Positions 1 to 9,735 of a stretch of DNA of 45,903 nucleotides are shown one piece after another. How positions within the stretch are numbered: position 1 is the stretch's first letter; every line of letters begins with the position of its first letter. The DNA lies in contig PBBE01000020.1 in assembly GCA_002716485.1 (NCBI GenBank), forward strand, positions 1 to 45,903, read 5' to 3'. This DNA comes from Actinomycetota bacterium (GTDB lineage: Bacteria > Margulisbacteria > Marinamargulisbacteria > GCA-2716485). The position numbers and the translations under genes are program-made. The notes beneath the pieces are model-generated. The model was not told the DNA's origin. It made no database searches and worked only from the letters and a program-made list of their open reading frames with translations.

Positions 1-161
1 CGTGTGGTTTATATTTTTCTTGTCTTGATGAATGATTGTGGATGATCTGTGTTTAATGAATAAATAAAAAGAGACTCTTGATAGCTTAAGAATTTTATTT
101 GATGGATCAAATGCTACCGGATTAAATGCAATCCAGGTCTCCTTTTGGTAATTTTGAATAT

Positions 162-2294
162 TTATTTTTTTTCTTGATCGAATTGTTCCTGAATAGCTGC
201 GAAATCATAGTTGAATTTTTTTACTTTAACATGGGGGTTAATTTCAAAGCGATCTGGTGATTTTGGTTTTTTTAGGCCATTAGCGGGCTTGTGAGTTTGA
301 AATCCGGGGAAATTTGTTATGCAGGTTGTATAGTATTCATATCTTAAAAGGTCTTTACCAAAACTATCTAATATATTTTTTTGACGATGGGCATAAACTA
401 CAAACCGCTTGAATAAATGATGTGGTATTATTTCGTTGTTTTTTTCTTTGTTTGTATTTACAAATTTGTTTAGAATAAGAAAAAATGATTTAGTTCTTAA
501 ATTAGCGGATAAAGGAAATCCAGACTTTATACTGTTATGTACTTGATCTTTGTCGCTATATGGCGGAGGATCTATTGGATTGAATTTACATATGTTGGTG
601 TTGGTTAACTGATTAGTACGTTGCATATGTTCTTTAAGTAAATCGATTTTTTTAGCTTTATGTGTGCAGTAAAGCATATAACAGTTCTCTACCCAAATCT
701 TGGACAATGGATTAAGCATCCAATTTTCGTCTAAATTTATTTTTTGTTCATAGTTAAAATAAAGTTTTTTTATCATTTTGTTTTCTATATTAGTAATTAC
801 GTTAGGGAATCCAGTTTTTTTTCGGGTATAAAATGTCTCGTCTAAGCTTGGTGCGTTCTTCATTAAGAGGTCTTTTATCCAGCATTTTTGGGTATTGTTG
901 ATCACATGTGAAAGAATTTCTTTTTTGGGTATTTTATGAGCTAAACTTATATCTAAATAGGGGACTCTAACTTCTATTCCATGGGCCATAGAAAAATGGT
1001 CGAATGGGGTTAAATGACTTTGAAGCAAGGCCTCTTTACCCATTAGTGAAAATAATACAGAGATTGCTTGTTGAGATGTATTTATATCTTTTGCTAAAGA
1101 CCAAAATTTTTGTGCTAAAGTTGTATTGCTACCGCTCAAAATAAGCTTTTCTTTAATCCTGTTAATATATTCAAAAGACTTCCTGAATATTGGGTATCCA
1201 CCTAAAATTTCATCTGCACCTTCTCCGCACAATACAACTTTCATTTCAGGAAATAACTCGTGGATTTTTTTGAAAGCCAGATAAATGTGTGATCCGGGAT
1301 GACTTCCGGGGCGATGGTAACAAATATCGGAAATATTTTCTATGACCTCATCCGTTTCAATATGTATTTGGTGGAATTGATAGTGGGCAATTTTTGCAAC
1401 TTTTTTAGCCCATTTATAATCTGGTGATTCTTTGCTTCCTACAAAAAAACAAACTATATTTTTGATTTTAAGTTTTCGTGCCAATATCGCTATTAAACTA
1501 GAATCAACTCCTCCAGATAGTAGTAGCCCTATAGTTGTGGCGTCAGAATGCATACATTGTTTCAGAATCGATTGAGATAATCGCTTTTCAAAAGTTTTCG
1601 ACTCTTTAATGGTCGAAAGACCTTCAATTATTTTTTTAACATCAAAACCCATCATTTTTATTTCCATCGATTCAAATGCGTAAGTCATCACTGTTGATGC
1701 AGGTAGCTCATGTATGCTTGGTAAAATTGTATCGTGTGAATCACTAAATTTGAATGCAAAATTATTTAGAAAATAAGCGTGGTTAAGTGTTTTTATTGGC
1801 TTGATTTTCATTTGTACTAATGACTTGATATCCGATGCAAATGCAAATCCTTCTTTAAACTTCATATAAAATAATGGCTTTATTCCCATTGGATCTCGTG
1901 CTAATACGAATTGATTGTTGTCTAAATCAATAATTGCAATTGCATACATGCCATCTATATATTGTGTGAATGCTGTTCCCCACTTATTGTATGCCGCTAA
2001 AATTACTGTTTGTTCCGAAACGGCTTTTTCTCCTAATTCGAGCTTATTCTGTAGTGCCTTGTAGTTCCATATTTCACCATTGAGAATGACCATTTTTTTG
2101 GAATTTACATTTGGTTTAATCGTCATCTGTCTGTTGACGATAGCCAAACGGGTAGTCCCAAAGGCAGCATAACCATATTTCGTTGTTTTTTGAATATGAA
2201 ACTGTTCATCTGGACCTCTATGTTTTAGGCCATCAACAACATTCTGAAGTGAATGATTCTTTTCTGCATTAAATATACCTACAATGCCACACAT
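162..2294 (-). CDS. Asparagine synthetase B-like glutamine amidotransferase with C-terminal extension
   Basis: This is a 710-aa class II glutamine amidotransferase fused to an ATP-dependent synthetase domain. In this family glutamine-derived ammonia amidates a carboxylate activated by ATP. The catalytic Cys2 (MCGIVGIF), R50 and the LNGE motif (71-74) mark the glutaminase domain. The PPi-loop SGGVDSS (260-266) marks the synthetase domain. The protein exceeds usual AsnB (about 550-630 aa) because of roughly 130 extra C-terminal residues that I do not recognise. The gene is divergent from the RiPP-like operon and shares a 149-bp intergenic region with it. It has no Shine-Dalgarno, and a -10-like box lies only about 7 bp upstream of ATG. 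It may amidate the peptide or a sugar. It could also be ordinary AsnB or belong to a surface-polysaccharide locus off the left edge. The plus strand here lacks the G excess seen under other minus-strand genes. Confidence 0.85.
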   Translation of the reverse strand: MCGIVGIFNAEKNHSLQNVVDGLKHRGPDEQFHIQKTTKYGYAAFGTTRLAIVNRQMTIKPNVNSKKMVILNGEIWNYKALQNKLELGEKAVSEQTVILAAYNKWGTAFTQYIDGMYAIAIIDLDNNQFVLARDPMGIKPLFYMKFKEGFAFASDIKSLVQMKIKPIKTLNHAYFLNNFAFKFSDSHDTILPSIHELPASTVMTYAFESMEIKMMGFDVKKIIEGLSTIKESKTFEKRLSQSILKQCMHSDATTIGLLLSGGVDSSLIAILARKLKIKNIVCFFVGSKESPDYKWAKKVAKIAHYQFHQIHIETDEVIENISDICYHRPGSHPGSHIYLAFKKIHELFPEMKVVLCGEGADEILGGYPIFRKSFEYINRIKEKLILSGSNTTLAQKFWSLAKDINTSQQAISVLFSLMGKEALLQSHLTPFDHFSMAHGIEVRVPYLDISLAHKIPKKEILSHVINNTQKCWIKDLLMKNAPSLDETFYTRKKTGFPNVITNIENKMIKKLYFNYEQKINLDENWMLNPLSKIWVENCYMLYCTHKAKKIDLLKEHMQRTNQLTNTNICKFNPIDPPPYSDKDQVHNSIKSGFPLSANLRTKSFFLILNKFVNTNKEKNNEIIPHHLFKRFVVYAHRQKNILDSFGKDLLRYEYYTTCITNFPGFQTHKPANGLKKPKSPDRFEINPHVKVKKFNYDFAAIQEQFDQEKK

Positions 2295-2301
2295 GATATT
2301 A

Positions 2302-2331
2302 ATTAAAAGGTAAATAATAATAGCTTGTCAA
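2302..2331 (-). promoter_or_regulatory. Promoter of the AsnB-like gene, probably leaderless
   Basis: Read on the minus strand, a perfect -35 box TTGACA (2326-2331) is followed after 18 bp by TTTAAT (2302-2307, 5 of 6 matches to TATAAT). Initiation about 7 bp further on would fall at or next to the ATG at 2294. With no Shine-Dalgarno present, the transcript is probably leaderless. Called by eye from consensus only. Confidence 0.45.
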
Positions 2332-2370
2332 TTTTATCTGGACAATGGGTTTAGTTTTATTTCCTGTTTA

Positions 2371-2400
2371 TTGACAAATTTGATAAGGTTGTGATAAAAA
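2371..2400 (+). promoter_or_regulatory. Promoter of the RiPP-like operon
   Basis: A perfect -35 box TTGACA (2371-2376) is followed after 18 bp by TAAAAA (2395-2400). It lies 43 bp upstream of the peptide gene. A strong ribosome binding site AGGAGG (2433-2438) precedes the ATG at 2444, as expected for an abundantly made precursor. The divergent AsnB-like promoter lies about 40 bp away, so one regulator could control both. Confidence 0.5.
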
Positions 2401-2443
2401 TTACTTGTTACTTTAATTGGTTTAATAAAAAAAGGAGGAAAAA

Positions 2444-2776
2444 ATGAGTGTACAACCTATTCCAGGAAATCTAGGATTTTCTATACAAAAGAATTCACGG
2501 CCTGGTAAAGAGCAAGATACATCTAAAGCAGGAAAAAAAGCAGATACGGAAGCGGCTAAGAAAGAGACGCCGTCTTTGGTGCGTGAGTTGCCTGAGTTCG
2601 AAATCACTTCTGTGAAAGTAACTTTGCCATATGATGGCGGAGAGCAAGCAGAGGGTTGTAAAGATGGCGCTTGTAGAGCTTGTGCGTGTAATGCAGGGAC
2701 AGAGTTATCAAATGAGGCTCAACCCGGAGACGCTTCTTTTGTAAGACACAATTGGAATGAAATAGATCGTCACTAG
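2444..2776 (+). CDS. Putative Cys-rich RiPP precursor peptide
   Basis: A 110-aa hydrophilic, Lys/Glu-rich protein without an N-terminal signal peptide or membrane segment. Residues 1-70 would be a leader. A compact cluster of four cysteines follows, C72, C77, C80 and C82 (GCKDGACRACAC), spaced C-x4-C-x2-C-x-C. A polar tail ends in NWNEIDRH. The strong AGGAGG site and first place in an operon with an MNIO oxidase and its partner point to a ribosomal peptide substrate. Known MNIO enzymes oxidise Cys (to oxazolone/thioamide or thiooxazole) or act on C-terminal residues. Most bufferin precursors have a signal peptide, which this lacks. The stop codon overlaps the next GTG start by one base (TAGTG). 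I recognise no named family, and the precursor role is inferred from context. Confidence 0.7.
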   Translation: MSVQPIPGNLGFSIQKNSRPGKEQDTSKAGKKADTEAAKKETPSLVRELPEFEITSVKVTLPYDGGEQAEGCKDGACRACACNAGTELSNEAQPGDASFVRHNWNEIDRH

Positions 2777-3603
2777 TGGGTGAATTGACCTGGCGGACAA
2801 GTCTGTTTTTAGGAAGGTTTTATGTCTCGGATGTATTCCGAGACTTGACCTATGCTAATCCAGATTTGGCTTATTCATACTTCAATTTAAATTCCCAAGA
2901 AGTGGAATACCTCTCTGATTTTATTTCTAAAAACAAGGGTGAACTTGAAACTTTTGCGGATTCTTTAATTAAAAAACGTCAATCGACGATGAAAAAGTTT
3001 CCGATCACTTTACGCCTTTTGGGCGAAGAAAAGTTGTTTGTTTTTTTTAAGTTGTATTGCGGCATGTTTCCTCAGGATCACTTTCTTGAGAATACACTCG
3101 ATGATGCGGTTTCATTCGGGAAATATTGTGAACATATTTTTTCTCATTATCCAAATATTCATCCTGTCTTTTCTGAGTTGATTCGGTATGAAAGACGGAT
3201 GCTGAAGGAACCCGCTCATGGTTGTTTTGGAGAGGACGTTGATTCTGACCAGTTTGCTTGTTTGTTTGAGTCACCTGAAGACTATAGACTTAGACCACAA
3301 TATAGATGGGTGGATAGTTTTGACTATAACCTTCTTCCTTTAATTAAATTTGGAAAATATCCAGAGAGTATAAATCCTACATTTTTGCTTTTAGATTCAA
3401 GTGGGACGCTTAATATGCTTACCAGAGATATGTTTGATCTTATATTTAACCTTGTTAATGCAACGAGTTATTATAATTCGAAGCAGTTGATTTTAAATCA
3501 GTTTGGATTGCAGGAAACTCAATTAAGAAAGCAGGTAGAGAGTTTGATTGAAAAAAAATATTTAAAAGTGATATCGAAGAGAGCTGTTACCGCCAATGTT
3601 TGA
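2776..3603 (+). CDS. MNIO partner protein (MbnC/BufC/HvfC-like), C-terminal winged-helix-like domain
   Basis: A 275-aa soluble protein, GTG start overlapping the precursor stop as TAGTG. The N-terminal part (about residues 15-110) is helical, with an ELETFADSLIKKRQ stretch and later FPITLRLLGEEK. This resembles the N-terminal domains of proteins encoded beside DUF692 enzymes (HvfC/BufC/MbnC type), which bind the precursor leader and present it to the oxidase. The last 70 or so residues (LNMLTRDMFDLIFNLV to LIEKKYLKVIS) look like a winged-helix or PqqD-like fold, and a similar pattern ends the glycosyltransferase. The gene lies directly upstream of the MNIO gene and overlaps it by 8 bp, so translation is probably coupled. 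The family call rests on context and weak resemblance. A separate precursor-recognition role is inference. Confidence 0.6.
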   Translation: MGELTWRTSLFLGRFYVSDVFRDLTYANPDLAYSYFNLNSQEVEYLSDFISKNKGELETFADSLIKKRQSTMKKFPITLRLLGEEKLFVFFKLYCGMFPQDHFLENTLDDAVSFGKYCEHIFSHYPNIHPVFSELIRYERRMLKEPAHGCFGEDVDSDQFACLFESPEDYRLRPQYRWVDSFDYNLLPLIKFGKYPESINPTFLLLDSSGTLNMLTRDMFDLIFNLVNATSYYNSKQLILNQFGLQETQLRKQVESLIEKKYLKVISKRAVTANV

Positions 3604-4432
3604 ATCAATTCGATTTATGGGATCTGGTTTAGGGTATCGGAAAGAACTTTTTGAAGGGTCTGTATGTCTTAAAGATAAGGTGGACTGTGTAGAAATAGTG
3701 TCTGAGCATTATTTAAAGGAAACCGATCGAAATGAAAAGGCGTTGGAGATGCTTACGGACAACTATAACGTTTTACTTCATGGACTTGGGTTGTCGTTGG
3801 GGTCACCGATTATAGATAAAGTATATTTAATGAATATAAAACGGTTGGTTCTTCAGACAAAAGTCCCTTATTATACGGATCATTTGTCTATTACCAGAAG
3901 TGCGGGGTTTACTTACGGTCATTTGTCTCCGATATTGTATACTCGGTCGTCACTTGAAAGCTGTATTGAAAATGTTAATCGTATACAGGATGTTCTTGGC
4001 ATCCCACTAGCATTAGAAAATATTACATATGGATTTGATATTACAGATAGCCAGATCTCTCATGGTGACTTTCTTTCTGAATTGGTAGAAAGAACCGGTT
4101 GTGGGTTGCTTTTAGATTTGACCAATGTGTTTATTAATTCGCATAATCATTCCTTTAATCCTGAAGACTATTTAGATGCCTTTCCATTAAGCCATGTGAT
4201 TCATATCCATACCTCTGGTGGGCATCGTGATAATAATGGCGGTTATATTGACTCTCATTCTTATTCTGTGCCTCAAGAAGTATGGTCACTGTTAGAGTAT
4301 GTATTACCGAAAACATCGGTAAAAAGTGTTATTTTGGAACGTGATGGAAGATACGATGAGTCTGGTGACTCTGTTATTGAAGACGTTGCAATCTCTAGAT
4401 CTTATTTAGATAAACTGAAAGTACCAGCCTAA
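3596..4432 (+). CDS. DUF692/MNIO multinuclear non-heme iron oxidase (MbnB/TglH/BufB-like)
   Basis: A 278-aa TIM-barrel protein of the usual DUF692 length. Family motifs appear in order: GLGYR (11-15), HGLGLSLGS (62-70), TDHLS (94-98), LEN (140-142), LDLTN (173-177), HIHTSGGH (203-210), IDSHS (218-222) and LERDGR (247-252). These supply the His, Asp and Glu residues that bind two or three iron ions in MbnB and TglH, so the site looks intact. Family members perform oxygen-dependent four-electron oxidations of Cys, or cleavage or rearrangement at Cys or C-terminal residues of ribosomal peptides, together with a partner protein. Overlap with the partner gene and one base of spacing to the glycosyltransferase indicate one transcript. 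The likely substrate is the Cys cluster of the peptide at 2444. The exact chemistry cannot be read from sequence. Confidence 0.88.
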   Translation: MFESIRFMGSGLGYRKELFEGSVCLKDKVDCVEIVSEHYLKETDRNEKALEMLTDNYNVLLHGLGLSLGSPIIDKVYLMNIKRLVLQTKVPYYTDHLSITRSAGFTYGHLSPILYTRSSLESCIENVNRIQDVLGIPLALENITYGFDITDSQISHGDFLSELVERTGCGLLLDLTNVFINSHNHSFNPEDYLDAFPLSHVIHIHTSGGHRDNNGGYIDSHSYSVPQEVWSLLEYVLPKTSVKSVILERDGRYDESGDSVIEDVAISRSYLDKLKVPA

Positions 4433-4433
4433 T

Positions 4434-6392
4434 ATGAAGATTTGTCTCGTCCAAAAATATCCACCTATTCAGGGAGGGATTAGTAGAGATGCCTATATCC
4501 AAAGTTTGGTATTACTCAAAGCCGGACATGAGGTGTTTGTCGTTACCAATTCTCTGGAAGTTGAACAAAACTATAGGTGTTTTGATACCTCATACTATCA
4601 AGATATTGGATTAGATCCAAAGTTAGATGGGGGGAATAAATTAAAGGTGTTTTCGACAGAAACGAGAAAAGGACATTTTGTTATTCCGAAGGTAAATCCA
4701 TCGGTTACAAAATTAACATCTTTGGCTACTTATGTTGTTGAAAAATATAATTGTGATTTGATAGTAGGCTTTTATTTTGAACCTTACGGAATGGCCGCCT
4801 ATATTACGAGTACATATACGGGGGTTCCTTTTGGGATTATGCATGGGGGTAGAGATATTGGCCAATTATTAGCTTCCCCAGACCTTTATTTATCTTATAA
4901 AAAATTACTTGAAAGGGCGGCCTTTATTATTGGTACTACTACTATTTGGGGAAAATTGAACTTTATGGGCATTGATATCAAAAAATTATTTTATCATAAG
5001 ACTGCTGATTATTTTTCCCCTTTTTTTTCCAATACAAAACCGCCTATGGACCTTAATGAATATCGACAAATTATTTTGAACCATTTCCCTAATGAGTTTG
5101 TTCCGGAATTGTATAAAGGGCTATCAAAGAAAGAAATAAAAAGAAACATACCGATTATCGGTATGTATTCAAAATCTGGGAAATTTAAAGGAATTGAGTA
5201 TATTTTGACCGCTTTATCCCTTCTAAAAAAATCTGGAAAAGCATTTTACTTTGTGGCTGTTTTTCAGGGGGAAGAGGACGAGTTGAATGCTATTCTAAGC
5301 AAAGTAACCGAACTGAATTTGCATCATTGTGTCTGGATATTTCCATTTATGCCGTATTGGCATATTGGACATTTTATTCGATCTTGTACGGCAGTGTGCT
5401 TTTTGGAAAAAAACTTTGGGATTACATTTCATATGCCAAAAATTCAAGATGAAGTATTGGCCTCTTCTAAGTGTTTAATTATGTCAGATGAAATTGCACG
5501 CAAGCAGCGATATCGGCATGAAATTAAATCCGGAGAGAATTGTTTTGTTGTAAACCCTCAAGATGTAACTGATTTAGCAAATATTTTAGAAGAAGTCATC
5601 ACAGATCAACAAAAGGTAAATCAAATTGCTAAAAATGGGTACCAGTCACTTTATTTGCCTTTTGCAATAAAAGAAGACGTGGTTGTGGATCGGGTGAATA
5701 ATATGTATTCAGATATTTTTCAATATTTAAAACTTTCAGATGAAGATCAATTATATCTTAAACTTAAAAAAGAAATTCAAGTCACATATGCGTCTCTATT
5801 TAGGTTTGATCCATCTTGTAATCTTAATACTGTCTCGGCGTTTTGTCGGCACATTGATACGGATCAAACTTTTTATCAGCTGCTTATGGCGTATGGAGAT
5901 TATATCCTAAAAGAATCTCAACATGGTGATCAGACTTTGGCGTATCTAGATGAGGTAATACGATATTGTCAATTTAAGATTCGGTCAAAATATAACAAAG
6001 TTGATCCACGATTTAATCCAGTAAATCATATTAAATTGATTAGAGCACCGATTACATTAGATTCTCCAATTTCGATTTTACCTGACATTTTAATTGAAGA
6101 TTTTAAAATAGATATACCAAGACTTTTTCAAAATGATTCAGAATCGCCAGCCATTCAAGAAGGGGTTTATAGCTATATATTTCAATCTGCAGGTAACTAT
6201 CATCCCATTCAAAAAGAGCTTTATATTTCTACAATGGTTAGAGACGTCCTTGATTTGTGTTCAATGAATGTAACTCCACAATATATTTTAGATAATTTTT
6301 CAAAAGATAAAAACGTGGCGCTATCAGAAAAAATGCTTATGGAATTATTGAGAGATTTGCAAAAAGAATTAGTTATTAGTGTCGCTACTTAA
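4434..6392 (+). CDS. GT4-type glycosyltransferase with C-terminal extension
   Basis: A 652-aa protein. Residues 1 to about 420 form a GT-B glycosyltransferase. The N-terminal MKICLVQKYPPIQGGISRD has the glycine-rich acceptor-side loop of GT4 enzymes, PIIGMYSKSGKFKG starts the nucleotide-sugar half, and GENCFVVNPQD is the usual late motif. The remaining roughly 230 residues are not part of a standard GT4. Their end (STMVRDVLDLCSMNVTP to ELLRDLQKELVIS) resembles the winged-helix-like end of the partner protein. No signal peptide or membrane segment is evident, so it acts in the cytosol. One base separates it from the MNIO gene, which suggests that the peptide is glycosylated, perhaps on Cys, Ser or Thr. 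A role in envelope polysaccharide synthesis is the alternative. The gene is very AT-rich; for example, 5581-5640 has 17 G+C in 60 bases. Confidence 0.75.
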   Translation: MKICLVQKYPPIQGGISRDAYIQSLVLLKAGHEVFVVTNSLEVEQNYRCFDTSYYQDIGLDPKLDGGNKLKVFSTETRKGHFVIPKVNPSVTKLTSLATYVVEKYNCDLIVGFYFEPYGMAAYITSTYTGVPFGIMHGGRDIGQLLASPDLYLSYKKLLERAAFIIGTTTIWGKLNFMGIDIKKLFYHKTADYFSPFFSNTKPPMDLNEYRQIILNHFPNEFVPELYKGLSKKEIKRNIPIIGMYSKSGKFKGIEYILTALSLLKKSGKAFYFVAVFQGEEDELNAILSKVTELNLHHCVWIFPFMPYWHIGHFIRSCTAVCFLEKNFGITFHMPKIQDEVLASSKCLIMSDEIARKQRYRHEIKSGENCFVVNPQDVTDLANILEEVITDQQKVNQIAKNGYQSLYLPFAIKEDVVVDRVNNMYSDIFQYLKLSDEDQLYLKLKKEIQVTYASLFRFDPSCNLNTVSAFCRHIDTDQTFYQLLMAYGDYILKESQHGDQTLAYLDEVIRYCQFKIRSKYNKVDPRFNPVNHIKLIRAPITLDSPISILPDILIEDFKIDIPRLFQNDSESPAIQEGVYSYIFQSAGNYHPIQKELYISTMVRDVLDLCSMNVTPQYILDNFSKDKNVALSEKMLMELLRDLQKELVISVAT

Positions 6393-6466
6393 TTGCATCT
6401 TACTTATGAGCCTTGTTGCCTGTTCATTGTTTGTTTTTTAAATTTGGCGCTAATGATGGGTTAAAA

Positions 6467-6599
6467 TCATTGGGATTCATCAAGAACGCTGAATAAAAGC
6501 GCCTGTTGGTTGGGGGTAAATATCAAGGGGTCGTTATTGATATCGGTATGTTTAATGATAGGCTCATTAAATTTAAAATCGATACCCTCTCGTCTTGTT
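6467..6599 (-). other. Open 43-codon stretch without a start, possible gene remnant
   Basis: On the minus strand a frame stays open for 43 codons between two stops and reads like protein (REGIDFKFNEPIIKHTDINN, then PNQQALLFSVLDESQ). It has no usable start codon. It may be the decayed tail of a lost gene beside the acquired region, or chance. The rest of 6393-6610 holds only the palindrome at 6551-6571. Confidence 0.2.
6551..6579 (+). promoter_or_regulatory. Perfect palindrome overlapping a putative promoter of the zinc island
   Basis: TTTAATGA (6551-6558) and TCATTAAA (6564-6571) form a perfect 8-bp inverted repeat around TAGGC. A -10-like box TAAAAT (6574-6579, 5 of 6) follows directly, so a bound protein would cover the -35 region. 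Placement ahead of a zinc-type uptake island suggests a Zur-like repressor site. The motif is not a textbook Zur box, so the regulator is inferred. Confidence 0.35.
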
Positions 6600-6625
6600 T
6601 ATTGTGTTGATTGGGGGGGGGATGG

Positions 6626-6949
6626 GTGTTAGAATTAGGGGCTGGAGTTGATGTTTTTTTGTTTCAGTTTCGGTTGATAAAATTTTTGTTGGTGCTGGGG
6701 CTTCTTTTGGGGCTGTTGCTGCCTATGTTGCATCTTCATCCTCTTGAAGAGATTGCTGATGAGGATATTGATCATTCTTGTGTGCTTTGTTTGAATCAAG
6801 GGCCCGTTTTTATTGAACAACCATCCCTTGCTCATTTAGGTGTGCCTCTACCTTTGGTTAGGGGGGCTGTGGAGGGAGCTTTAGCTGGTCTTTATTTGGA
6901 TTCTTTTTGCTCAGATTACTTGTCTCGGGGACCGCCCCTGATTGTTTGA
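6626..6949 (+). CDS. Small membrane-anchored His/Cys protein (DUF2946-like)
   Basis: About 107 aa. A hydrophobic segment (LIKFLLVLGLLLGLLLPML) is followed by HLHPLEE, then DHSCVLCLNQG, and the protein ends in SRGPPLIV. A membrane anchor, a His motif, a CxxC and a C-terminal RGPP are typical of DUF2946-like proteins found beside metal uptake genes and thought to bind metal in the periplasm. The start is uncertain: TTG at 6611, GTG at 6626 and TTG at 6674 are all in frame. I chose GTG 6626 because a run of nine G (6613-6621) lies just before it and could act as a weak ribosome binding site. It lies 47 bp upstream of the porin gene, probably in the same unit. The family assignment is from pattern only. 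Confidence 0.6.
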   Translation: MLELGAGVDVFLFQFRLIKFLLVLGLLLGLLLPMLHLHPLEEIADEDIDHSCVLCLNQGPVFIEQPSLAHLGVPLPLVRGAVEGALAGLYLDSFCSDYLSRGPPLIV

Positions 6950-6996
6950 GTTGGATTTATTTTTTATTTGAACTGTAATTTAAAGGAGATTTTATT

Positions 6997-8070
6997 ATGA
7001 ATAAATTTTTGTTAATGGGCTTGACGGCCTTGATGTTGACTCAGTCAGCTGTCTTTGCACAAACGTCTAAAGAAGTGACCGATTTACCGGATATTTCAGT
7101 GATTGGGAATATGATTGGGACTCAATCGGATGGAAAAAATGACTTTTCAGTGAAAGAAATTGAATTGTCTTTTCAACACTATCTTTACCCGTCTCTTAAA
7201 GCCGATGTCTTTATGGCCCTTCATAAAGAAGATTCTGGTCAACGGAACTTTGAGCTTGAAGAAGCGTATGTGACGGCGTTGGATCTTTATGGGCTTTTGA
7301 ACCCTAACTCTTCTCGGAACTTAGGGCTAGGATTAGCGTTGGGTCAGAAACGAGTGAATATTGGTAAAGTGAACCCTTTACATCCGGAACAATGGCGTTT
7401 TGTGGACCGGCCTTTGGCTATTCAGCAGTTCTTAGGCGGTGCCGAAGGGCTTTCTGCTGAAGGGGGACACTTGAACTATCTATTACCATTGCCTATCTTT
7501 TCTCAAGTTGAATTGGGGTATTGGACCGTTCAAGCTCATGCTGAAGAGGCTGGTGCTGAAGAGGCCCATGGGGTTGAATTTGAAAATAAACTTCTGAATG
7601 GACGATTATGGAATAGCCTTGCGCTTTCTCAATCTCAAGAATTAGAGTTGGGTCTAAATTATCTGTTAGGCAATGCATCTTCATCTTCTACTGATGATCA
7701 ACAGACCGTTATGGGGCTTGATCTGACGTATTCAAAAGAATTTGCCATGGATCGATACCTTAAGCTTCAAGCTGAATTCTATCAAGCGAAATATGGTGAA
7801 GAAGGAGAGTCGCCTGAGGAGCAACAAGGTGGATTTTTGTCAGGGGTTTATCAATTTAGCCCTAAATTTCAGGCCGGTGTTCGTTATGGGACCCTTTCTA
7901 AACATGGTGATGAAGGCAATGTTAAAAATCAAGTTGCCCTTATGGCCACTCGTCAATTAAGTGAAACGTCCAAGTTTAGATTGCAATATAATAGCGGTGA
8001 TAATGTCACGTCTGCTGTTTATGCGCAATTTATTTTTGGAATGGGTCCACACTCGCATGTCCTTCAATAA
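6997..8070 (+). CDS. Outer-membrane porin of a zinc-type uptake island
   Basis: A 357-aa beta-barrel protein. A clear signal peptide ends at VFAQ (about residue 22). Alternating beta strands follow, with many aromatic and polar residues, and the C-terminus is FIFGMGPHSHVLQ. That ending, with GMGPH and a His, is typical of the TonB-independent outer-membrane proteins encoded next to ZnuA-like proteins, which are believed to pass zinc or another divalent metal. It has a strong site AAAGGAGA before ATG and overlaps the ZnuA-like gene by 14 bp. Acidic and His-containing loops (AHAEEAGAEEAHG) could attract metal ions. Substrate zinc is inferred from neighbours; manganese is possible. Confidence 0.65.
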   Translation: MNKFLLMGLTALMLTQSAVFAQTSKEVTDLPDISVIGNMIGTQSDGKNDFSVKEIELSFQHYLYPSLKADVFMALHKEDSGQRNFELEEAYVTALDLYGLLNPNSSRNLGLGLALGQKRVNIGKVNPLHPEQWRFVDRPLAIQQFLGGAEGLSAEGGHLNYLLPLPIFSQVELGYWTVQAHAEEAGAEEAHGVEFENKLLNGRLWNSLALSQSQELELGLNYLLGNASSSSTDDQQTVMGLDLTYSKEFAMDRYLKLQAEFYQAKYGEEGESPEEQQGGFLSGVYQFSPKFQAGVRYGTLSKHGDEGNVKNQVALMATRQLSETSKFRLQYNSGDNVTSAVYAQFIFGMGPHSHVLQ

Positions 8071-8965
8071 ATCTCGCGCCTTTTTAGTCGCAATGTTGTT
8101 ATGGGTTGGCGCTTTTAGCCAGCCCATGGCAGATCAGATTCAGGTGGTGGCCATTACCCAGGATTTTGCCAGTATTGCCCAAGAGATTGGTGGTGACTTG
8201 GTTGAAGTGCAGCCTTTGATTAAAGGGAGCCGGAATCTTCATCATGTGACGCCTCGACCGTCCATGGTGATGAAGGTTAAACGGGCTGATTTACTGATTC
8301 GATTGGGAATGGGACAAGATTCTTGGATCGATGGCTTGATTCAGGTGGCACGTAATGCTCGGGTTTTTCCGGGTGAACATGGGTACTTGGATGCCTCGGT
8401 GCCGATTCGGAAATTGGAAATACCTGATCATGATCTGGATGGGAGCATGGGCGATGTCCATCAACATGGAAATCCTCATTATTGGTTGGATCCTTATAAT
8501 GGGGTTCTGATCGCTGCTCAGATTCGGGACCACTTGTCTCAACTATCACCCGAGAATCGATCGGAGTTTGAGGCGAATTACCAACGGTTTTCGACAGAGC
8601 TGGAACGAAAGGCTAAGGTTTGGAATGATCAGTTGTTAGCTGTTAAGAGTCAGATCTTTATTACCTATCATAAGGTGTGGTCTTACTTTTTTGAGGCCTT
8701 TAATTTGACCAGTATTGGTGAATTAGAGCCCTTGCCGGGGATTGCCCCTAGCATTCGTCATTTGAGTGCCCTTAAAGAGCAAGTCTCTGAGTTGCAAGGG
8801 CCCTTTGTGGTCTTAATGGCAGACTACTATCCAGCGCCTGCTGGTCGTGGCTTTGCCAAGCAGATTGATGCCCGATTTGTTAGTGCGGCTCCTCATGTTG
8901 GGGAAGGAGATATTGATCATTATTTTGACCTTTTTGATACCCTTGTTCAGGCTGTTCTAAAATGA
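8057..8965 (+). CDS. ZnuA-like metal ABC transporter substrate-binding protein
   Basis: A 302-aa periplasmic protein of the cluster A-I metal-binding family. I chose ATG 8057 because it gives an immediate signal peptide (SFNKSRAFLVAMLLWVGAF), whereas an upstream extension would not. Metal ligands are visible: HH at 62-63 in LHHVTPRPSM, H141 in HYWLDP, H205 in TYHKVW, and the Asp of ADYYPAPAG near the C-terminus. A short Asp/His-rich loop (DHDLDGSMGDVHQHG, 124-138) is like the zinc-collecting loop of ZnuA, although shorter. It delivers metal to the permease encoded just downstream, and the two genes overlap as ATGA. Zinc is favoured over manganese because of the loop and the HYWLDP motif. Confidence 0.8.
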   Translation: MSFNKSRAFLVAMLLWVGAFSQPMADQIQVVAITQDFASIAQEIGGDLVEVQPLIKGSRNLHHVTPRPSMVMKVKRADLLIRLGMGQDSWIDGLIQVARNARVFPGEHGYLDASVPIRKLEIPDHDLDGSMGDVHQHGNPHYWLDPYNGVLIAAQIRDHLSQLSPENRSEFEANYQRFSTELERKAKVWNDQLLAVKSQIFITYHKVWSYFFEAFNLTSIGELEPLPGIAPSIRHLSALKEQVSELQGPFVVLMADYYPAPAGRGFAKQIDARFVSAAPHVGEGDIDHYFDLFDTLVQAVLK

Positions 8966-9735
8966 TTGGGATGTTGATTTTTCCTTTCTTAGTTTGTGTG
9001 GCATTGGTCTTGGTTCACGCCTATTTTGGGGCCTTTGTCTTGCGGCGAGGGATTATCTTTATTGACCTAGCGTTGGCCCAATGGGCCGCGCTAGGGTATA
9101 TTGCCGGTTATTTGATGGGCGTTCATGAGCCGTTGTTATTGTTTTTGATTGGGTTTGGGTTTACGGTGCTGGCATCTTTGGTGCTGACCTTATTAAAGCC
9201 CATTTATCAGGAAAATAACTTGCAAGAGGCGGTGATTGGGGTGACCTATATTACCGCTACAGCATTAAGTATTGCCATGGTTTCCATGGCGGGGCTTGAA
9301 GGGCATCATATCCAAGAAATGTTGACGGGTCATTTGCTTTTTGTTCAACCTTCGGAGGTGTGGATGGCGGTTGGGTTATATGCATTGATTGGGTGTGTGT
9401 TACTTAAATTACATCCTTATTTTATACAACCACAAGGTCAAAAATGGGACTTTGTTTTTTATGTCTTGTTTGGATTGGTAGTGACTTCTTCAGTAAAGAT
9501 GGTAGGGGTTTTATTGGTGTTTTCGTACTTGGTATTACCCATATTATCTGTGGTTCAAAGTTACGATTCATTTAGATCCCAAGTAAAAGTGGGCTGGGTG
9601 ATTGGGGTGCTTAGTTCTATGTTGGGATTGTGGGTTTCATTTTTTCTAGATGTGCCGCCTAGTGTTGCTGTTATTTTGGTCTTGGTCTTAGCTTGGGTCT
9701 GTTCTATGGGGTTACGCTTTTTATTTCGCACTTAA
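8962..9735 (+). CDS. ABC-3 family metal permease (ZnuB-like)
   Basis: A 257-aa inner-membrane protein with about seven to eight hydrophobic segments, the usual length for ZnuB/MntB permeases. It overlaps the binding-protein gene by 4 bp (ATGA). The conserved region before the last helices (VKMVGVLLVFSYLVLPIL) matches the family signature, including the SYLVLPI stretch that precedes the ATPase contact. No ZnuC-type ATPase gene follows; the next 248 bp are non-coding and then a phosphate porin begins. The ATPase must be encoded elsewhere or be shared with another transporter. Confidence 0.8.
   Translation: MIGMLIFPFLVCVALVLVHAYFGAFVLRRGIIFIDLALAQWAALGYIAGYLMGVHEPLLLFLIGFGFTVLASLVLTLLKPIYQENNLQEAVIGVTYITATALSIAMVSMAGLEGHHIQEMLTGHLLFVQPSEVWMAVGLYALIGCVLLKLHPYFIQPQGQKWDFVFYVLFGLVVTSSVKMVGVLLVFSYLVLPILSVVQSYDSFRSQVKVGWVIGVLSSMLGLWVSFFLDVPPSVAVILVLVLAWVCSMGLRFLFRT

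Follow-up and report, generated by a model that had tools for sequence, protein, structure and literature searches.

A candidate MNIO-type RiPP cluster with a glycosyltransferase carrying a predicted partner domain and an asparagine-synthetase-like gene on a low-GC island of a Margulisbacteria contig

In other MNIO systems, a partner protein and the MNIO act on a precursor peptide, mostly at cysteine motifs (PMC12452194). Here we describe a gene cluster for a putative ribosomally synthesized and post-translationally modified peptide (RiPP) on contig PBBE01000020.1 of assembly GCA_002716485.1, the whole of which (45,903 nucleotides) was analysed and is called the window. In this cluster a small Cys-rich peptide, a partner and an MNIO are encoded next to a glycosyltransferase (GT) and an asparagine-synthetase-like (AsnS-like) enzyme. 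The PME-type-2 clusters (pearlin TglHI, aminopyruvatide ApyHI, biphenomycin-like; PMC12452194) resemble it in having an MNIO, a partner that lacks the Pfam signature of DUF2063 and a precursor without a signal peptide. The survey of these clusters (Antoine et al. 2025, PMC12452194) describes neither a GT bearing a RiPP recognition element (RRE) nor the present precursor, and "glycosyl" is absent from the main text of this 2025 MNIO landscape survey. The bufferins and oxazolins (HvfABCD, BufABC) likewise combine an MNIO, a partner related at the profile level and a Cys-rich peptide; unlike them, the present locus has no signal peptide, another type of partner, an MNIO scoring under the model cut-offs, and an additional GT and AsnS-like enzyme. 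The bufferin/oxazolin type is the kind present in other genomes of this phylum. Glycocins of the sublancin type are, as here, ribosomal Cys-rich peptides with a dedicated GT; they are made without an MNIO, and their GT is a GT2-type enzyme without a partner module.

Two further systems bear on the additional enzymes. In the nitrilobacillin pathway (pes; PMC13060819), which is the precedent for an AS-like enzyme and an MNIO working on one precursor, MNIO, partner and AS-like genes stand together as they do here, where they would share one precursor; there is no GT in pes. At an R(V/T)DN motif, its AS-like enzyme PesC forms a C-terminal nitrile (PMC13060819); our peptide, which ends NEIDRH, does not have this motif. 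RRE-fused glycosyltransferases have been reported with RRE-Finder (PMC12710340) and are alike in joining a GT to a peptide-binding RRE; theirs are of the PF00535/GT2 type, whereas the present enzyme is of the PF00534/GT4 type, carries a whole DUF2063-like plus RRE module and is encoded beside an MNIO. In the literature outside subscription papers we found no glycosylated MNIO product, no MNIO-linked GT and no characterised MNIO cluster with this gene set. The last point agrees with an earlier reading of the window made by inspection of the letters (the sequence-only reading); priority is not claimed outright.

The cluster contains a plus-strand run of four open reading frames (ORFs) at 2444-2776, 2776-3603, 3596-4432 and 4434-6392, encoding 110, 275, 278 and 652 aa in operon order. 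The 275-aa ORF starts with GTG and overlaps the peptide ORF by 1 base, the MNIO ORF overlaps the partner ORF by 8 bases, and 1 base separates MNIO and GT. The sequence-only reading had the four abutting genes right; it had also described the GT as fused to the operon with one base of spacing, of which the spacing holds and the fusion does not, the GT being encoded 1 base downstream of the MNIO. Its gene set was incomplete, as the AsnS-like gene (162-2294) and the C-terminal domain of the GT had been missed. The features of the cluster are as follows.

2432-2438, plus strand: perfect Shine-Dalgarno sequence AAGGAGG before the ATG of the peptide gene (read from sequence).
2444-2776, plus strand: putative precursor peptide, 110 aa; small ORFs of related clusters are like it in position and in having a Cys-rich C-terminal half.
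2657-2689, plus strand: Cys cluster C72-K-D-G-A-C77-R-A-C80-A-C82, putative core (read from sequence).
2776-3603, plus strand: predicted MNIO partner, PME-type 2, with a helical DUF2063-like part and an RRE-like end (BLASTP E=6e-10 to the G421 partner).
3596-4432, plus strand: MNIO (DUF692) oxidative enzyme (PF05114, MbnB_TglH_ChrH, E=6.5e-73).
4434-5699, plus strand: GT4-type glycosyltransferase domain, aa 1-422 (PF00534 E=8.7e-10, 38.8 bits, cut-off 26.4).
5700-6389, plus strand: predicted MNIO-partner/RRE-type domain of the GT, aa 423-652 (hhalign of the GT family with partner profiles).
162-2294, minus strand: AsnS-like enzyme of 710 aa, encoded divergently to the peptide operon (TIGR01536 293 bits, cut-off 267.1; PF00733/PF13537).
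201-365, minus strand: segment of the AsnS-like protein resembling MNIO partners (DUF2063), aa 644-698 (34% over 58 aa with the L007 partner, BLASTP E=7e-9 in a single comparison).

We consider it likely that these genes form a horizontally acquired MNIO/PME-type-2 RiPP cluster with two further tailoring enzymes, in which the MNIO would oxidise, the GT glycosylate and the AsnS-like enzyme amidate the peptide. The features by which an MNIO-RiPP cluster is recognised are present, namely a PF05114 protein with an intact site, a partner related to DUF2063/TglI and an adjacent small ORF with a Cys motif. The sequences show the genes and their domain architecture, and that the set recurs in other phyla. 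An MNIO of the same clade, a partner, one or more Cys-rich small ORFs and a homologous GT are contiguous in three genomes, G936 (Acidobacteriota), G557 and G303 (both Myxococcota). When the GT profile was the sole query against 518 genomes, only these three were retrieved, and the MNIO adjoined the GT each time; because G303 was found by the GT profile alone, the linkage of GT and MNIO is not circular. Homologous MNIOs therefore do adjoin peptide and GT genes elsewhere, the neighbourhood on which the sequence-only reading had staked its proposal.

The order of genes differs among the three relatives. G936 has a row of precursor-like ORFs (KPEFQADEVTELDDKDLNDASGGGYCTGCEGCDRCNGC), the partner, a second small Cys ORF, the MNIO and two GTs. 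In G557 the order is a Cys-rich peptide (WCACAGRCNCFCGNC), MNIO, partner, GT and AsnS, and in G303 a Cys-rich peptide ORF, MNIO (36%), partner, GT and AsnS. The gene following AsnS in G557 was considered as cysteine-dioxygenase-like and dropped, having no Pfam match. On contig 44 of G936, at about 103-111 kb (L056/L064/L065), one MNIO and two GTs have some twelve precursor-like ORFs in tandem on their flanks; these ORFs share a conserved leader that ends in a GG motif of the VSGG type, vary in their Cys-rich cores and present a natural combinatorial set. In G303 (L070, 12650-15442) the AsnS-like protein adjoining the GT is fused to an S-adenosylmethionine methyltransferase domain.

The GT domain of the window is 34-36% identical over more than 400 aa to the GTs of these clusters. 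GT4 domains score above the cut-off in all four clusters, and the donor-side region is strongly conserved. Early hhalign runs with single C-termini of the AsnS-like protein and the GT against partners were not significant, and the link of the GT to the partners became clear only once homologues were added. Four aligned GT C-termini matched partner profiles at 97.9% (E 5e-13), at 97.8% without the window sequence and at 98% with the G303 GT added (overall range 97.8-98.3%), whereas the GT N-termini, run as a control, gave 0.5%. The G303 GT passes the Pfam model PqqD (PF05402; 30.7 bits, cut-off 23.4) and falls just below the cut-off of NGO1945_C (PF22106; E 3e-5); the NCBIfam HvfC RRE model (NF050145) matches two GT homologues weakly. 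Smith-Waterman shuffles of the GT C-terminus fell in the same range as unrelated window proteins and were not used. From these comparisons the GT C-terminus is assigned as an MNIO-partner-type domain (DUF2063-like plus RRE). Since the GT has its own domain of this type, direct action on the peptide is supported, and the GT itself probably docks on the same precursor. The earlier proposal, that this is a new MNIO RiPP cluster whose product may be glycosylated, gains support from this predicted domain and from the recurrence of GT and MNIO across phyla.

The AsnS-like protein has the N-terminal Cys2 glutaminase start (MCGI) and the SGGVDSS loop of the ATP-pyrophosphatase. Because a homologue recurs beside the GT in both myxobacteria, directly after it in each case, the AsnS-like gene is assigned to the cluster by its context; the homologues in G557 and G303 have no partner-like tail. 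The end of the ORF (window 162-190, minus strand) contains a run of eight A (GAAAAAAAATAA), and the -1 frame runs on without a stop to the contig edge, over more than 50 codons. A -1 frameshift continuation was considered as the hidden remainder of the partner-like domain (its RRE half), was unsupported by shuffles and was rejected.

We considered three alternatives to the preferred reading. The first, which we hold to be unlikely and which fares best of the three, is an MNIO RiPP without glycosylation of the peptide. The RRE-bearing GT-fold enzyme would then perform another transfer or glycosylate an acceptor of the cell envelope, and the product would be an oxidised, non-glycosylated Cys-rich peptide. 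A fold family does not fix the chemistry, as lasso cyclases annotated as Asn synthetases illustrate (PMC12710340); the acidic residues conserved in the GT4 domain have an unusual spacing (E325...E340), and sister clusters work without a GT. Against this stand the GT4 scores and the conserved donor side described above, and the RRE-type domain, which would target the GT to a peptide.

The second alternative concerns the precursor itself. The peptide contains exactly four Cys (residues 72, 77, 80 and 82, in the segment GCKDGACRACACNAG), clustered as the sequence-only reading had described them, and has no match in Pfam. Its N-terminus (MSVQPIPGNLGFSIQKNSRPGKEQDTSKAGKK) is hydrophilic with no signal peptide apparent, as read from the sequence with no predictor, and its C-terminus is NWNEIDRH. 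The leader-like stretch ELPEFEITSVK resembles KPEFQADEVT and similar stretches in the leaders of related clusters, a likeness that is only suggestive. Gly65-Gly66 precedes the putative core and VSGG motifs occur in G936, which suggests leader cleavage at the GG.

Four Streptomyces clusters (L017, L019, L020 and L021), whose MNIOs are 35-39% identical, also bear on the precursor. They consist of a Cys-containing small ORF, the partner, a second small ORF, the MNIO, a FAD/NAD(P) protein, a 2-oxoglutarate-Fe oxygenase and an ABC transporter. They are alike in the order precursor-partner-MNIO and in the peptide motif ACR[AG]C; they have the last three genes in place of the GT and AsnS-like genes. 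In all four, the second small ORF, between partner and MNIO, carries the motif GC[ED]ACR[AG]CxxW. This ORF has the look of an overlooked precursor; the L017 record does not annotate it.

Second small ORF of the Streptomyces clusters: L017 5801-5965; L019 about 8790-8950; L020 about 8690-8840; L021 8760-8972.

The 110-aa ORF could be a small accessory protein, with the true precursor lying past the contig edge. It is long in comparison with the 36-64 aa of most relatives, the contig ends near the AsnS-like gene, and two different small peptides occur in the Streptomyces and G936 clusters. We nevertheless regard this explanation as improbable: the ORF has the position of a precursor, a strong ribosome-binding site and the Cys cluster, and its ACRAC recurs as GC[ED]ACR[AG]C in the Streptomyces small ORFs beside the MNIO.

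The class of the cluster was assessed from the MNIO and its partner. The presumed iron-ligand positions of the MNIO (H62, H96, E141, D174, N177, H205, D219, H221 and E248) are intact and invariant among relatives, bearing out the intact DUF692/MNIO site of the sequence-only reading; solved relatives are 3bww, 8hi7/TglH and MbnB. The MNIO alone as a query found no close relatives in the genome contig collection. The closest MNIO found (42% identity) is that of the myxobacterial genome G421, where a small ORF ending CKCKCKC is followed by partner, MNIO and, by a weak match, a CxxCxxCC-domain-like protein; G547 has the same arrangement. Other relatives of the MNIO, in Acidobacteriota, are paired with TIGR04222-like proteins (identified by eye). 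In an IQ-TREE tree the MNIO and its relatives fall on one side, apart from the bufferin-type MNIOs (support 100/99). The best model scores, BufB 202.9 bits (cut-off 310) and HvfB 186.7 bits (cut-off 360), are both below threshold, as are those for the MbnB equivalog TIGR04159 (48.1 bits, cut-off 325) and, for the AsnS-like protein, the lasso cyclase NF033535 (140 bits, cut-off 525). The partner had nothing above cut-off in Pfam, the DUF2063 signature of PME-type-1 included; its family profile matches DUF2063 partners at 96.8% (E=3e-10) in a profile comparison. By the models tested, the cluster is classified as an MNIO/PME-type-2 RiPP cluster and not as a bufferin, methanobactin or lasso cluster. 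In two partners (L056 6031-6867; L038), the helical N-terminal part weakly matches the precursor models Os1348 (NF038399; NHLP-clan) and Frankia_peptide (PF14407), hinting that DUF2063-like partners and these precursors share a module. Searches on plasmids for the partner and the GT C-terminus found none, and an IMG/VR scan gave no match.

The entire cluster is carried by an island at the end of the contig (C20).

1-6500, no strand: A+T-rich island (GC 32-36%, versus 39-44% across most of the remaining window).

Among 74 genomes of the phylum the partner gene occurs in this one only, and no gene for the AsnS-like protein was found at E<=1e-40 in the 73 others. The MNIOs of related genomes of the phylum are of the bufferin/HvfB type, with signal-peptide precursors and DUF2063-like partners. 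Because of these findings and the low GC, the island, the AsnS-like gene included, was probably acquired horizontally. Beyond 6.5 kb follow genes for the uptake of zinc and phosphate, two-component genes and housekeeping genes (named by eye). Directly after the island, at 6997-9735, lie porin-like, ZnuA-like and ZnuB-like genes of normal GC, which for this reason are probably host genes with no relation to the cluster. No Rfam elements were found in window positions 1-8000, and promoter and terminator scans did no better than shuffles.

The third alternative, very improbable and already disfavoured, is a metallophore operon of the bufferin/oxazolin kind, which would convert Cys to thiooxazole, followed by a GT that has nothing to do with it: the top MNIO scores to BufB and HvfB, the Cys-rich peptide and the ZnuA/ZnuB-like metal-uptake genes at 7961-9735 just downstream speak for it, but these scores lie far under the equivalog cut-offs, the MNIO stands in the PME-type-2 clade, there is no signal peptide and no Pfam DUF2063 partner, the low-GC island does not extend to the zinc genes, and the GT recurs with such MNIOs.

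Several observations weigh against the preferred reading of an MNIO/PME-type-2 cluster with GT and AsnS-like tailoring enzymes. The GT C-terminus of the window by itself reaches 48-80% against partner profiles and matches no Pfam family, so that its link to the partner domain leans on its homologues. AlphaFold models of this C-terminus and of the partner (pLDDT 41 and 48) are uninterpretable. The partner-like tail of the AsnS-like protein rests on one strong pairwise match and is weak by hhalign (17.5% against partners). A position-specific scoring matrix of the leader motif gave p=0.03 when 8 of the related leaders were taken for comparison and 0.18 when all 14 were. No transporter or peptidase was seen, with the contig stopping 161 bases past the AsnS-like gene. 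Finally, the closest MNIOs (G421/G547, Streptomyces) come without a GT, and GT-bearing MNIOs do not form one clade in the tree, so the GT was probably gained or lost more than once.

For the preferred reading we infer a pathway in which leader binding, the order of steps, the site and chemistry of oxidation, glycosylation and amidation, and the biological role are all proposals. The 110-aa peptide would be the precursor, with a leader of about 65 residues, perhaps reaching to Gly65-Gly66, followed by the Cys-rich core. The partner (2776-3603) would bind the leader and present the core to the MNIO, which would oxidise one or more core residues, most likely Cys. As the GT carries its own copy of a partner/RRE-type module, it may dock on the same leader and glycosylate either the core or the residue that the MNIO has modified. 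The AsnS-like enzyme, with its partner-like tail, would probably amidate a carboxylate of the peptide. We tentatively go a step further, to a possibility that we hold less likely than not: a class of glycosylated MNIO products in which three tailoring enzymes (the MNIO through its partner, the GT and the AsnS-like enzyme) carry or borrow the same docking module and act in turn on one Cys-rich core, the sugar being attached to an oxidised Cys or beside it.

MNIO enzymes are a fast-growing source of new peptide chemistry. If the GT does have built-in leader docking, it would be a natural tool for placing sugars on chosen peptides. The small size of the cluster, its contiguity and its occurrence in three phyla make the hypothesis directly testable in E. 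coli. Two other phyla have this gene set too, so it looks like that of a family of peptide natural products that has yet to be described and whose members may bear sugars.

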